A stretch of 24,632 nt of DNA from a virus, in the IMG/VR virus record IMGVR_UViG_3300025712_000421, positions 1 to 24,632 of that record; one strand, written 5' to 3'. The first letter of the stretch is position 1, and the number at the start of each line of letters is the position of its first letter. Of the stretch, positions 1,228-23,766 are shown piece after piece. The notes under the pieces were generated by a model. That model saw nothing but the letters and a program-made list of their open reading frames with translations. It was not told the DNA's origin and ran no database searches. The position numbers and the translations under genes were made by a program.

Positions 1228-3120
1228 TTAATTAGGGTTGTTTGTGTTGCCTGAATTCATACCAAATGTCACAACACTACTATTATTACTAACACTAGAA
1301 CTTGAAACAATATTGTTCATCTGACCTGCTTCACCAGCAGTTTTATTATTTGCAATATCTCTAGTCAACTGTCGTATCTGTTCAAGTGCCTCTTTATTAC
1401 CATTAGATGCCTCATTAATTAGGTCTACTATTGGTGGATGATTCATTGCAATTTTTACTAATTTGTCACTCTCGTCATTAAACCAACTTTCATCAATGGT
1501 ATTTTCTTTTCCATATCCTGAAGCATCAGTCTGACCCATGAGAGCTCTCTCAAGATTATCTAAAGCTTTGGTGGCCTCGTTATTACCTTCTGCATCTTTT
1601 CTATTTTGTTTATATTGTTCTTCAGCATCTTTTAACTGTATTTTTGAAAAGTTCTTTGCAAATTGTTCTTCATAAGTACCATAGTCAAATGTACTAGAAC
1701 TTTCTCTTCCATGCCAGTCGCCAGGCATTGCAGCGACCATAGTCTCTGTACCAGTTTGATAACCATAAGTTTGAGTCTCCTCATCAAACTTCATTCTCAT
1801 TGCCTTAACAAACTCATCAACACTACCAAGAAGTTTACTTCTATCAGTATATTCTTTAATCTGTGCTTCCGTAAGTCCCTCAAAGGTGCCCTTTTGATTG
1901 GTCAATGATATTGAGTCACTTTTATACTTATCATTTTCGTTTAATTCTCTGATGGTTCTATCTAAAGCACCAACATTCATATCTGTAATTATATCTTCAG
2001 CCGTACCAAGTATAGTAGACTTGTGTGCATCAATTAGGTTGGTGACACCATCTTGTAAAGATTTATCAAGCTTAGAAACCATTAGGTTCCAAGTTTCATC
2101 ATTTAAATCTACTTCAAATCCTTCGTTTTCAAATATTGATTTCAACCCCTCAGTAGTTTTAAATGCATCACCACTCTTATTCAATTCCTCTATTTCACCA
2201 CCATAATATTTTTCTATGTAATCGGTCTCTCTTTTAGAAATTCGTTTTTTGATTTCTTTATCACCTTCTTTGCCAGTAAAGAACATCTTAAGTCTATCTA
2301 CAGCGTTAGCCATCGTGATACCAAGTCGGTCTAGTTTTTTTCCTAGGAATTTCTTCATCAATATTATTCCTACTACTATTGCACCAATAGCACCTAAAAC
2401 CATTAGTGACCTAGTCTTTAACATCTTCCAAACGAATGTGACTGTCTTACCTAATAACCTTAAAGCTTTAACTGGAACTATCTTTCTAATTCCCTTTAAC
2501 ATCTGTTGTAGTCTTGCAGTACTTTGTCTTTTCGATACTGCCTGGTTTTTCATTAAGAAACCCTGACCATCTTGTTTTCTTTGACCCTTAACTCTCTTGT
2601 CTAACTTACCACTCTTTGTAAAGACTCTACCAGTAGTATCATAACCAAGGTCTTTATTCATAAATGATTTTAATTTAGACCCCTGAATAGATGCCTTTCT
2701 TCCGATAGTCTGACCGAGTTTAGAGTTCTTGAGTAAATTACCTGTCTTACCTAAAAACCCAAATGCACTTTGAGCTCCAAGACCTATTCCCTGTATACTT
2801 CCTTTTAGTAAACCGAAAGCTGCTGTAACCTTTTTAGTTGCATCTTTTATCTGAGAACCACCAATAGAACCAAAAAGTTCATCAAAGTCTGATTTCATTT
2901 GACCTGAAATCGTCTTTGTTGTTCTGACTATCTTCTCACCTTCTTTCTCGTACTCTGTACCAAACTGTTCTTGGAATGCATTCCCAAGAGACTTTTTGAA
3001 AGGCTCAAACTTTTTGAGCAGCTGCTTGAGAATTCGATTGCTTTCACGAGCAGTATCAAATTGTGCTTCACCATATCTTTGTTGAGATTTGATTACATCA
3101 TTAAAGGTTGCTTCTGCCAT
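1228..3120 (-). CDS. Tape-measure-like tail protein with one membrane segment
   Basis: 630 residues, close to the length of T4 gp29 (about 590). The N-terminal third is alpha-helical and very basic, with many Lys-rich stretches (residues 130-215). There is one strong hydrophobic segment at about residues 238-256 (LMVLGAIGAIVVGIILMKK), as is common in tail tape measures. The C-terminal half is acidic and ends in a Ser/Asn-rich tail. Its position just downstream of a gp26-like gene with a likely frameshift extension is the usual place of a tape-measure gene in long-tailed phages. The start has an AGGA site 8 bases upstream. The assignment rests on context and composition, not on a diagnostic motif; another virion or tail-tip protein remains possible. 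Confidence 0.6.
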   Translation of the reverse strand: MAEATFNDVIKSQQRYGEAQFDTARESNRILKQLLKKFEPFKKSLGNAFQEQFGTEYEKEGEKIVRTTKTISGQMKSDFDELFGSIGGSQIKDATKKVTAAFGLLKGSIQGIGLGAQSAFGFLGKTGNLLKNSKLGQTIGRKASIQGSKLKSFMNKDLGYDTTGRVFTKSGKLDKRVKGQRKQDGQGFLMKNQAVSKRQSTARLQQMLKGIRKIVPVKALRLLGKTVTFVWKMLKTRSLMVLGAIGAIVVGIILMKKFLGKKLDRLGITMANAVDRLKMFFTGKEGDKEIKKRISKRETDYIEKYYGGEIEELNKSGDAFKTTEGLKSIFENEGFEVDLNDETWNLMVSKLDKSLQDGVTNLIDAHKSTILGTAEDIITDMNVGALDRTIRELNENDKYKSDSISLTNQKGTFEGLTEAQIKEYTDRSKLLGSVDEFVKAMRMKFDEETQTYGYQTGTETMVAAMPGDWHGRESSSTFDYGTYEEQFAKNFSKIQLKDAEEQYKQNRKDAEGNNEATKALDNLERALMGQTDASGYGKENTIDESWFNDESDKLVKIAMNHPPIVDLINEASNGNKEALEQIRQLTRDIANNKTAGEAGQMNNIVSSSSVSNNSSVVTFGMNSGNTNNPN

Positions 3121-3130
3121 CTGTTAAGTC

Positions 3131-3511
3131 CTAGTTAGGGTTAGTATCCCCATGTTCTTTAGCTGCACTTGAAGTGTATAGTCCAAACCATGCCGCACCA
3201 GCACCGACCAATACAGATATTAAACCTGACTGTTCTAGTGTTGGGTCTGCTAAGTCCATAAACCAAAATGTTGCGTAGTAAAGAAGATACATGTATATAC
3301 CTAAGAATGCTCTTGGTATAATTCTCCATGCATCAATTGTTTTTGCAGCGAAAATCCATTTCTGCCATGGATTCTTTCTGTCTTCGTTTGTCAATTCAAA
3401 AATTTCTTGTTTAAGTTCGCCAATCTCTGATACCATTGCCATGAACTTTTTCAAGTCTATTTCAACCTCGTTACGACTCATGTCCCCCGAGAATTTATCT
3501 ATATCGCTCAT
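3131..3511 (-). CDS. Small two-helix membrane protein, holin-like
   Basis: 126 residues. The N-terminal half is hydrophilic and partly coiled. Two hydrophobic segments follow at about 66-86 (AFLGIYMYLLYYATFWFM) and 96-113 (GLISVLVGAGAAWFGLY). The second, with Gly/Ala and a final Trp-Phe-Gly, resembles the last helix of three-TM-type phage holins, but the assignment is weak and it could instead act in tail assembly or DNA entry. The start has a clear AGAGGA site. A late-promoter-like GATAAATA box lies about 26 bases upstream, inside the end of the 57-residue ORF. It sits between the gp26-like unit and the tape-measure-like gene. Confidence 0.6.
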   Translation of the reverse strand: MSDIDKFSGDMSRNEVEIDLKKFMAMVSEIGELKQEIFELTNEDRKNPWQKWIFAAKTIDAWRIIPRAFLGIYMYLLYYATFWFMDLADPTLEQSGLISVLVGAGAAWFGLYTSSAAKEHGDTNPN

Positions 3512-3535: not shown

Positions 3536-3709
3536 TTATTTATCTTGACGTAATTTTTCCTCTTCTAAATGATTGATGAGAAGTTTAGTGTATATCTCTC
3601 TTTCCCAAGGTATCATGTTTTCTAATTCCGTCAATGAGTATTTATGATGTTGCATCAACTGAAAGTTAGTTTGATAGTAATTAATTATACTTTCATGAGA
3701 AAGAGCCAC
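3536..3709 (-). CDS. 57-codon ORF, likely -1 frameshift extension of the gp26-like protein
   Basis: This reading frame opens with GTG at 3707-3709, which overlaps the TAG of the gp26-like gene (TAGTG). It contains the characteristic segment HHKYSLTELENMIPWEREIY, a pattern I associate with small ORFs after gp26/tail-chaperone genes in T4-like phages. No ribosome-binding site precedes the GTG. The frame is -1 relative to the upstream gene, and the junction is a run of eight T residues that reads T-TTT-TTT in the zero frame, a standard slippery heptamer. A slip would add 58 residues to the 237-residue protein, giving about 295. This mirrors the G/GT tail assembly chaperone pair of lambda. The alternative is weak GTG re-initiation. 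Confidence 0.7.
   Translation of the reverse strand: MALSHESIINYYQTNFQLMQHHKYSLTELENMIPWEREIYTKLLINHLEEEKLRQDK
3537..3544 (-). promoter_or_regulatory. Weak late promoter-like box GATAAATA
   Basis: One mismatch to TATAAATA. It lies about 26 bases before the ATG of the small membrane protein gene at 3511 and upstream of its AGAGGA site. It could be chance, since it also encodes the Asp-Lys-stop end of the 57-codon ORF. Confidence 0.3.
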
Positions 3710-4422
3710 TAAAAAAAAGCTTGGATTCCCTCTAATATCATTGTCTGTTTTTCATCTGTTCCACAAACAGGACAAGTATATTCACACTCTGCTCTTAGAA
3801 CAGGCATGTCTTCAAAGAATTCAGTTATCTTTTCTAACTGCTCAAGGGTAAGACTATCTACAAATTCCCTGATTTCTCTATCAGGTGTTTCAGACATCTC
3901 AAAGACTGACTCAGAATTGAACACTTGTAACATACACTTAGTCATCATTTCTAGTGTGTCAATTGCATCGACACTAGATAAAGATAACTCTGTTGCATCT
4001 TTAACAGTGGGATGTTTTAATACAATACCCATATCTTCTGTCAACATAACTCTATTATCTACACTTTGTGCAGTGTCTATCATTACTTTTTCAAGATTAA
4101 GTACATGTTCTATGGGAGCATGTTCAGAATTCTTTTGACATGGGAATGAAAGTTTAACAGTTTCACCAACTGACTTTCCTCTAACCTTTAAGAAAAGGTA
4201 TTCAATATCATAAGTTGGTAGACTCATGTAGTCCAATTCAGTAGATACCACGTCCTTTAAAAGATTAATTATCCCATCTAATGATGCAGCTTCTTCGTCA
4301 TCATCCTTAATCATAAGAAGATTTCGTTGTTCTTTAACTAGGAATGGTCTGTATTCAATCTCAAGTCCATTACTTGGTAGGTTAGTTTTATACTTGGGAG
4401 CCGATTGTATCGGTAATGCCAT
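3709..4422 (-). CDS. 26: T4 gp26-like baseplate hub/tail assembly protein
   Basis: 237 residues, matching the T4 base plate protein family typified by gp26 (about 208 residues). The N terminus MALPIQSAPKYKTNLPSNG and the segment EYRPFLVKEQRNLLM are typical of the family. A C-terminal cysteine cluster (C213, C217, C220; CxxxCxxC) may bind zinc. The T4 homologue is needed for hub assembly, but no gp26 density was assigned in the T4 baseplate structure, so a chaperone role is plausible. The start has a GGAGA site. The gene ends at an eight-T tract next to a -1 frame ORF. The downstream neighbours are a membrane protein and the tape-measure-like gene. Confidence 0.8.
   Translation of the reverse strand: MALPIQSAPKYKTNLPSNGLEIEYRPFLVKEQRNLLMIKDDDEEAASLDGIINLLKDVVSTELDYMSLPTYDIEYLFLKVRGKSVGETVKLSFPCQKNSEHAPIEHVLNLEKVMIDTAQSVDNRVMLTEDMGIVLKHPTVKDATELSLSSVDAIDTLEMMTKCMLQVFNSESVFEMSETPDREIREFVDSLTLEQLEKITEFFEDMPVLRAECEYTCPVCGTDEKQTMILEGIQAFF
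3711..3718 (-). promoter_or_regulatory. Putative -1 ribosomal frameshift site (U8 tract)
   Basis: The - strand reads GC, eight T, AGTG. Zero-frame codons are GCT TTT TTT TAG. A -1 slip of the two UUU codons restores perfect pairing and continues as TTA GTG GCT into the 57-codon ORF. The stop codon directly after the tract would make ribosomes pause there. No obvious downstream hairpin was found, which is also true of several known tail-gene frameshift sites. Confidence 0.6.
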
Positions 4423-21689: not shown

Positions 21690-21990
21690 TAAATGTAATA
21701 CTCACTCCACATCCACAGGATGCGACTTCATTTGGATTTTGAAATGTAAACGTTTCGTTTAGGCCTTCTTTAATATAATCTAATGTCATACCTTTTAAAA
21801 GGGGTTGACTCATTGTATCTATAAGAAAAGAGAAGTTACCATAATCTTCGACATGGTCTCCTTCTCTAATGTGGTCTTCTACAAAAACATATTCGTAACC
21901 ACTGCAACCACCACCAGTAACACCCAGTCTAACTGAGTCTACTTTCTTCTCTATGAGTTTTGCAATTGCAATGTCGGTTACTTCAATCAT
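21658..21990 (-). CDS. IscA/SufA/ErpA-type Fe-S cluster carrier
   Basis: 110 residues (family about 107-120). It carries and inserts Fe-S clusters. The three conserved cysteines are present: Cys29 in VTGGGCSGYEY, and Cys92 and Cys94 in NPNEVASCGCGVSI. The hydrophobic strand pattern between them (FLIDTMSQPLLKGMTLDYI) is typical. Phage copies are known in marine phages. Possible clients in this window are the radical SAM/SPASM enzyme (two clusters expected) and host enzymes used in replication. It is joined by ATGA to the carbamoyltransferase C-terminal gene upstream and overlaps the nuclease gene downstream. Confidence 0.92.
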   Translation of the reverse strand: MIEVTDIAIAKLIEKKVDSVRLGVTGGGCSGYEYVFVEDHIREGDHVEDYGNFSFLIDTMSQPLLKGMTLDYIKEGLNETFTFQNPNEVASCGCGVSITFNEDIVSKSKG

Positions 21991-22595
21991 TGTTTTTGTA
22001 TTTCTTTTGTGTTCTTTGGTCTAATCATTTCATAAGGTATGTCAATCTCTTGGTCTATTGGAACATAGAGTTGATTAATCATTGAACGATTACAAGTGTC
22101 GATTGCATCATAGATTGTTTCTACTAATGATTCACCACCTAAGTTAAATGAAGTGTTAAACAAGATAGGAGTTCCAGTCTCGTCACCAAATGCTTTTATT
22201 AGATTATAATAATTAGGGTTCTGTTCTTGGGTTACTGTTTGGATTCTACATGTTCCGTCTGCATGAACCAGTGAAGGAATCTCCTCGTATGCCTTTTCTT
22301 TTGCTTGAATAGCAAATGACATCCATGGGGATTCTTCTAATTGTAACATCTCAAAATATTCAGATGCATTTTCTTTTAATACAGTACATGCAAAAGGTCT
22401 ATAGTCCTCTCTCTGTTTGACCTCGTTGACGATTTGTTTTGCTTCTTCATGTCTAGGGTCAAATATAATAGAACGATTACCTAATGCACGAGGGCCCCAC
22501 TCAGAGGCATTCTGAAACATACCAATGATTTGTTTGTCGTCAATTAAACTTCTGACCACTTCTTCTTGGTCTCTTAATATATTAGTCAATAACAT
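21987..22595 (-). CDS. Carbamoyltransferase, C-terminal domain as a separate gene
   Basis: 202 residues from the ATG at 22595. Contains GMFQNASEWGPRALGNRSII (about 25-44), the hallmark of the carbamoyltransferase C-terminal domain, then DPRHEEAKQIVNE, REDYRPFACTVL, and TGTPILFNTSFNLGGESLV at the expected places. The start is preceded by GGGAG about 9-13 bases upstream and lies inside the end of the N-terminal gene (14-base overlap, different frame). Together the two cover a full NodU/TobZ-type enzyme without missing residues, so it is a two-gene form or a programmed frameshift product. An in-frame start at 22706 is possible but would deeply overlap the N-terminal gene. Confidence 0.82.
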   Translation of the reverse strand: MLLTNILRDQEEVVRSLIDDKQIIGMFQNASEWGPRALGNRSIIFDPRHEEAKQIVNEVKQREDYRPFACTVLKENASEYFEMLQLEESPWMSFAIQAKEKAYEEIPSLVHADGTCRIQTVTQEQNPNYYNLIKAFGDETGTPILFNTSFNLGGESLVETIYDAIDTCNRSMINQLYVPIDQEIDIPYEMIRPKNTKEIQKQ

Positions 22596-23766
22596 TTTCT
22601 GTTTCTCCCTCTTTGATATTTCTGTATAATATAGATGATGCACCAACACTTGTCCCACCATCATGTGGAATTGGGTCGACAAAGAATTGTTTGTCGGGGA
22701 ATGCAAGAAGGTACTTATAATTGTTAGTACAATTTAATGCAAACCCACCACTCAATACAATATTATTTATTTCGGGATTTAAATCAATTGCTTTCTGTAT
22801 TAAATCACATGTATGACCAAAGGATTGTAACTCAAGTTCTTGTGCTACTGTAAACTTATTAAAAACATTAGATGAGAGACCTTGTGACCCATAGGAAGCC
22901 ATTCCCATGACCTTACCTGCGGCACGACCTTCATCATCACAACCAAGTGCATAGGACATGTTAGAGAAGTTCATACCCATACTAGGTAAACTACTAAAGA
23001 CACATTCAACACCATCAATGGTTTCTGTTAAATCAGTATGACATGTGAAACAATCTTCCATGTAATTACTGAAAGACTGATTGTGCAACTCACCACAAAA
23101 TCTATGGTTAGAGAATTTCTGAAATTGTGGGACGGGTGTAGTGTTCGGACTACACTTCCATATACCTTCTATCTCTTGATAATTAGGATGGGTATCATAA
23201 TGTTTCTGAGCACCACCACCATCAAAGGTAATTGCAATTGCATCTTCGGTGTCTTTCCAAGGACTTAAAATATAACCACACTCTGCGTGATACAGGTGAT
23301 GTTCGTGTTCAAAGAAATATTCTTCAATACCAAGTTGTTCCGCAACCGATTCACAAATTGCAAAGTCGGGTTCCGCCATACCATGGTCACTGTCTTCACA
23401 AACATTGTCTGAAACATTAAACCATTGTGGGTGTTCTTCTTTTATCTCTTCAATTCTATCAGCAGTAAGTTGGGATTCTGTAAAGACTTCCAACAGTTCG
23501 TCTTGGTTCTTACGTTTAAATCTCATCAAGTCTTCGTTAAACTCTATTGAGAGTTGTCGTCTGTCAAAAGATGCAAAGACAACTTCATCGGGTGTCTCCA
23601 ATTGTTTATGTTCAACAAGAACAAGACCCGTGTCCCATTCCTTTTCACCTATTGTAAAGTATTTCTGTCTACGACTACGTTCTTCTTCAAAGACATCTTT
23701 TATAACACCATCATCGTTCACACAAAGTGCAGTGTCATGGGATGTATTAACTCCATATATTTTCAT
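22582..23766 (-). CDS. Carbamoyltransferase (NodU/TobZ type), N-terminal Kae1-like domain
   Basis: 394 residues. It begins MKIYGVNTSHDTALCVNDDG (actin/Kae1-like phosphate loop). FFEHEHHLYHAECGY has the His cluster that binds iron and phosphate in the Kae1/YrdC-like fold (His154, 156, 157, 160). ITFDGGGA follows, then NNIVLSGGFALNCTNNYKYL and DPIPHDGGTSVGAS at the end of the domain. These enzymes make carbamoyl-adenylate and transfer the carbamoyl group to sugars or antibiotics. It stops right where the domain linker begins, and the C-terminal domain continues in an overlapping frame. Glycan or nucleoside modification is the likely role; the substrate is unknown. Confidence 0.85.
   Translation of the reverse strand: MKIYGVNTSHDTALCVNDDGVIKDVFEEERSRRQKYFTIGEKEWDTGLVLVEHKQLETPDEVVFASFDRRQLSIEFNEDLMRFKRKNQDELLEVFTESQLTADRIEEIKEEHPQWFNVSDNVCEDSDHGMAEPDFAICESVAEQLGIEEYFFEHEHHLYHAECGYILSPWKDTEDAIAITFDGGGAQKHYDTHPNYQEIEGIWKCSPNTTPVPQFQKFSNHRFCGELHNQSFSNYMEDCFTCHTDLTETIDGVECVFSSLPSMGMNFSNMSYALGCDDEGRAAGKVMGMASYGSQGLSSNVFNKFTVAQELELQSFGHTCDLIQKAIDLNPEINNIVLSGGFALNCTNNYKYLLAFPDKQFFVDPIPHDGGTSVGASSILYRNIKEGETENVID

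Follow-up and report, generated by a model that had tools for sequence, protein, structure and literature searches.

In T4-like phages, tail assembly chaperones (TACs) were identified by Vladimirov, Gautam & Davidson 2022 (Virology 566:9-15), as cited in PMC10274946 and PMC12846349. According to PMC10274946, which cites that study, some T4-like phages encode the short and the long form in two different genes, and poly-T -1 frameshift signals in T4-like TAC-N genes are reported in PMC12846349 (2025), also with reference to Vladimirov 2022. The first-pass annotation of the DNA analysed here knew of no description of such frameshifting for T4-like marine phages, a statement which these citations of Vladimirov et al. 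2022 show to be wrong.

Here we describe the TAC locus of a T4-like marine myovirus in the IMG/VR virus record IMGVR_UViG_3300025712_000421, which was analysed over all of its 24,632 bases (the window). The short and the long form of the chaperone are, with high probability, produced from one gene by -1 slippage. A frameshifted T4-like chaperone is very well supported at this locus and is a kind of system that has already been described, to which the present analysis adds stimulator-like elements, the scale of the locus set and a group of loci that lacks the heptamer.

Anatomy of the junction

The 237-aa ORF of the window (Table 1) matches the Pfam family PF12322 (T4_baseplate; E 4.2e-51, 174.1 bits with a curated cut-off of 24.5) and the PHROG baseplate hub family phrog_150 (E 3.6e-56). 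This gp26-like gene ends in the codons GGA ATC CAA GCT TTT TTT TAG, and the final T of its eight-T run (3718..3711) is the T of the stop codon. When the sequence is re-read from 3712 in the -1 frame, it yields LVALSHESIINYYQTNFQLMQHHKYSLTELENMIPWEREIYTKLLINHLEEEKLRQDK, 58 codons followed by a stop at 3536-3538, and the peptide of the putative long form that spans the slip site reads ...IQAFFLVALSHE... Direct reading of the sequence thus agrees with the first-pass annotation on the gene end with its eight T, on the 58 open codons and on products of 237 and 295 aa. In PHROG, the extension matches phrog_634, the family of the baseplate hub assembly catalyst, with E 2.1e-26. It also matches phrog_150 at columns 236-278, the C-terminal part of that profile (E 2.8e-6), thus some deposited members of phrog_150 already hold the joined product.

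Table 1. Features of the TAC locus and the genes following it in the window, in order of transcription.
Feature	Position	Strand	Basis
TAC-N, short form (237 aa) of the gp26-like tail assembly chaperone	3709..4422	-	ORF, PF12322, phrog_150, good Shine-Dalgarno (SD) sequence upstream
SD-like AGAGGGA in coding sequence, 9 nt from last G to heptamer	3727..3733	-	anti-SD energy, synonymous resampling
Slippery heptamer T_TTT_TTT within T8 run 3711-3718	3712..3718	-	sequence, conservation, synonymous constraint
Short-form TAG stop directly after heptamer; overlaps GTG without ribosome-binding site	3709..3711	-	sequence, anti-SD energy
TAC-C, -1 frame extension, 58 codons and stop, giving the putative 295-aa long form	3536..3712	-	phrog_634, phrog_150, T4 gp51 homology, constraint
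Weak 5-bp stem-loop CTTTC-TCAT-GAAAG, 8 nt downstream of heptamer, possible stimulator	3690..3703	-	-2.8 kcal/mol
126-aa ORF with hydrophobic segments, between chaperone and tape measure candidate	3131..3511	-	ORF
630-aa ORF, tape measure candidate	1228..3120	-	position and size (590 aa in T4 gp29)

Homopolymer runs are error-prone, and the frame break might in principle reflect a sequencing error or a decayed gene. The T8 tract is the same in four IMG/VR contigs (L001-L004) and is therefore not an error of a single assembly; as these contigs are independent and identical, and as the same architecture recurs in 247 loci, this explanation is already refuted and its probability is next to nil.

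The AlphaFold model of the 237-aa short form is confident (pLDDT 90.7). Compared with the PDB, the predicted fold had no significant match (HK97 chaperone 2ob9 over 60 columns, E 2.8), and sequence searches found no solved relatives of the chaperone core. Fold matches in BFVD are chiefly named gp26-type baseplate hub proteins, along with several unnamed proteins.

Conservation of the slip site and the extension

The locus set consists of 269 scorable loci including the window, obtained from phage-record regions and from five viral-contig scans, one of which, with the Vibrio 6E35.1a protein as query, gave no match. This set leaves out T4, Thanatos-2 and Pectobacterium phage PM2, as they encode gp26 and gp51 as separate genes. 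Outside the Ackermannviridae-type group, every one of the 247 loci has a gp26-like gene that ends with an in-frame T_TTT_TTN, and a -1 frame ORF carrying the extension motif lies adjacent to this gene and is joined to the heptamer; in two of the loci this ORF is clipped by the contig end. The last base of the heptamer is C in 215 loci, T in 27, A in four and G in one. Elsewhere in the homologous genes an in-frame T_TTT_TTN occupies only 7 of 19,374 other positions, so its presence at the gene end of all 247 loci is not due to chance.

Codon statistics were based on 83 non-redundant representatives (<80% amino-acid identity). The first Phe codon is TTT in all 83, compared with 63% elsewhere in the same genes (P 3e-17), and the codon preceding it always ends in T (log10 P -20.9); the values 3e-17 and 10^-20.9 overstate independence since the sequences are related, but there is still no exception among the 83. 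For the second Phe, 72 of the 83 representatives use TTC, although TTT is preferred elsewhere. These patterns bear on RNA polymerase slippage on the T8 run, which could generate mRNAs of altered length and hence both forms without ribosomal frameshifting. Such slippage would be in keeping with the eight T of the window and with the T_TTT_TTT of the 27 loci, but the T_TTT_TTC of the 72 representatives is a short run for polymerase slippage and uses TTC against the general preference, and the SD-like and hairpin elements described below act on ribosomes. We therefore regard polymerase slippage as very improbable and favour ribosomal frameshifting.

The extension is under protein-level constraint in the -1 frame only, with an amino-acid identity of 0.61 in this frame compared with 0.35 and 0.30 in the other two, zero stops and mostly third-position changes. 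Furthermore, the spacing between slip site and extension motif is fixed at 24 codons in 76 of 78 scorable representatives. The fixed spacing, the constraint and the 247 loci support the earlier proposal that the gp26-like family represents a frameshifted tail chaperone, and the check suggested along with it, whether T-tract and -1 ORF are joined in homologues, gave an unbroken association in those loci. Relatives were also inspected for the features named in advance as speaking against a shift, i.e. a second ORF with its own ribosome-binding site and start, separated from the first gene or in a frame that slipping cannot reach, and none of these went against frameshifting.

Stimulator-like elements

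Signals for -1 frameshifting of the E. coli dnaX type combine an SD-like element upstream, a slippery heptamer and a stem-loop downstream. In the window, the 8-mer AGAGGGAA pairs with the anti-SD sequence at -6.3 kcal/mol, which exceeds all 665 other 8-mers of the gene. Among the representatives, the 8-mers that end 7-8 nt before the heptamer reach a mean of -6.4 kcal/mol against a background of +0.1, and none of 500 synonymous-codon resamplings of the group was as strong as observed (z -9.2). The SD-like element upstream of the heptamer thus exceeds what the protein sequence imposes.

A stem-loop located 3-8 nt downstream of the heptamer is present in many lineages, being strong in many relatives and weak in the window. 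For the group, the folding z-score of 45-nt windows peaks at -1.76 where these begin 6 nt past the heptamer, whereas controls taken 60-300 nt upstream have a mean of about -0.15. The hairpins found at this place differ by lineage (S-PM2, P-HM1, S-H9-1, S-H34 and Cr30), and about 18 of the 83 representatives have no single downstream hairpin. Covariation support for the hairpin is limited to one compensatory pair, which in the S-PM2 group is changed from C-G to U-A in 4 of 12 sequences (covariation, 1/500 shuffles). The SD-like element, and in many relatives the downstream stem-loop, probably raise the slip rate. No mention of these stimulators for T4-like phages was found in the literature examined, in which Vladimirov 2022 is represented by the papers citing it; they may still have been reported.

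Separate gp51 annotations in cyanophages

Alternatively, the second ORF could be a separate small gene, the gp51 of cyanophages, translated by termination-reinitiation at an overlapping GTG (TAGTG) or from a later start. Many cyanophage records do annotate a separate gp51 with internal starts, some ATG, GTG or TTG lies within the first 12 extension codons in 49 of the 83 representatives, and in the window a GTG, which is the sole start-like codon at the junction (TAGTG, 3709), overlaps the stop. However, the anti-SD energy upstream of this GTG is +0.1 kcal/mol, compared with -6.4 kcal/mol at gp26, -5.8 at the 126-aa gene and -3.9 at the 630-aa gene, which corresponds to no ribosome-binding site at the GTG, in line with the first-pass annotation. 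Moreover, the remaining 34 representatives contain no such codon, only 7 of the 83 have one with a plausible SD (<= -5), the annotated starts are placed at inconsistent points, the corresponding stretch of S-H9-1 is unannotated, and a separate gene would leave the T6 and spacing constraints unexplained. The separate-gene explanation consequently retains very little probability, and a -1 extension of the gp26-like gene is preferred.

Cyanophage gp51 has been described as lacking the first ~200 residues, in a paper that does not mention frameshifting (Sullivan et al. 2010, PMC3037559). It seems truncated because its domain is very probably reached by frameshifting from gp26, and the simplest reading of the separate cyanophage "gp51" is a C-terminal domain that gp26 acquires through the frameshift; if so, hundreds of public annotations share one error. 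The locus set also offers a large and statistically clear basis for testing how internal SD elements and hairpins tune -1 frameshifting in marine phages.

In the S-H9-1 record, the TAC-C stretch (L098:3714-3890) carries no annotation, while the internal starts given to other cyanophages are arbitrary.

A group without the heptamer

A -1 ORF of the same type is present without the heptamer in 22 of the 269 loci, which belong to Ackermannviridae, to IMG/VR relatives of this family and to Vibrio phage K483, which is unclassified (L089, L091, L093, L096 and L259-L276). The -1 TAC-C ORF of this group has the motif ..YSIFEIxExMPWHL.., the T6 heptamer is absent, and with the exception of Kuja (L089) and Vibrio K483 (L096) the loci have the junction GA[AG]ATTTTCAT[TC]TAAT in common. 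The comparison thereby reveals a sister group in which the usual slippery heptamer is missing and the long form is apparently retained.

Relation to T4 gp26 and gp51

T4 gp26 (208 aa) matches PF12322 with E 8.8e-64, as do residues 1-201 of T4 gp51 (249 aa; E 3.9e-52), of which residues 147-246 match phrog_634. The extension aligns with residues 206-243 of T4 gp51, a model built from the extension recognises gp51 but does not recognise gp26, and in the alignment the end of T4 gp26 coincides with the slip-site position in the marine proteins. Since T4 gp26 and gp51 share PF12322 and the remainder of gp51 is the extension domain, T4 has two genes for what marine phages very probably obtain as both forms of one gene. 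The tree unites the gp26 and gp51 proteins of T4-type phages in one group, with support values of 94/82 and a very short stem. This is insufficient as proof that a duplication took place within the T4-type lineage.

Downstream genes

The tape-measure-like gene that the first-pass annotation placed downstream has a candidate in the 630-aa ORF, but the 126-aa ORF, residues 55-120 of which match phrog_10198 (function unknown, E 3e-19), intervenes, and the identity of the candidate is not backed by a sequence match. The 630-aa ORF had zero matches in Pfam and in a tblastn search of 50,697 phage records, weak matches only in PHROG (best E 0.0077) and no alignment with its counterparts in Cr30 and Melnitz; in IMG/VR it was found in two near-identical contigs only. 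Cr30 has a small ORF at the corresponding place, and the next gene carries the annotation tail tape measure. From its position, size and features we infer that the 630-aa ORF is the tape measure.

In S-PM2, the protein following the chaperone (L081:4886-8389) begins with a region resembling ADP-ribosyltransferases (PF01129, E 1.3e-5) and also contains a phage tail lysozyme domain (PF18013). Elsewhere in the window, two overlapping ORFs share a split carbamoyltransferase-like gene (21987..23766, minus strand). Since the second ORF has its own ATG at 22595 after AGAGGGAG, the split looks like a real division into two genes and not an error.

Proposed mechanism and comparison with known systems

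We propose that most ribosomes halt at the TAG and release the 237-aa TAC-N, the counterpart of gp26. A minority, with tRNA-Phe in both the P and the A site on U_UUU_UUU, would slip back one base and read 58 further codons, resulting in a 295-aa TAC-NC with the C-terminal domain that T4 gp51 carries. Slippage would likely be boosted by AGAGGGA, which lies 9 nt upstream, and by the stem-loop that many relatives have 3-8 nt downstream. If lambda G/GT is a guide, the short form would be abundant and the long form scarce, and both could act as chaperones, coating the tape measure protein and delivering it to the tube protein. A broader scheme is tentative and, taken as a whole, possible rather than probable. 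In this scheme, T4-like TAC genes would carry a full compound signal (internal SD, T_TTT_TTC and a hairpin that varies by lineage), which would set the ratio of short to long form for tail length. The Ackermannviridae-type group, whose -1 TAC-C ORF has no canonical heptamer, would shift at some other or undescribed site, and T4 would have replaced the shift by gene duplication.

Among known systems, the T4-like TACs of Vladimirov 2022, as described in the papers citing that study, share with this phage the gp26/gp51-type TAC-N and TAC-NC and the poly-T -1 signal; this phage differs as a deep-branching marine member, with 37% identity to the nearest isolate, S-H9-1. T4 itself has PF12322 in both gp26 and gp51 and a gp51 C-terminus homologous to the extension of this phage, but encodes the short and long forms as two genes on opposite strands, with no T6 ending gene 26. 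In Vandenendeviridae and Andersonviridae (phage Adele, PMC12846349), the TAC locus has a conserved -1 frameshift at a GTTTTT motif ending TAC-N, although these are other phage families with another heptamer. In the lambda G/GT system, compared here by gene arrangement, -1 slippage close to the 3' end of one gene yields both forms, as proposed for this phage. The lambda gene lies ahead of the tail-length gene, an arrangement that this phage would share if the 630-aa ORF is its tape measure, and the heptamer differs. The dnaX-type signal, finally, has the layout that is suggested for this locus and its relatives, whereas the heptamer is T-based here and not A-based, and the hairpin is lineage-dependent.
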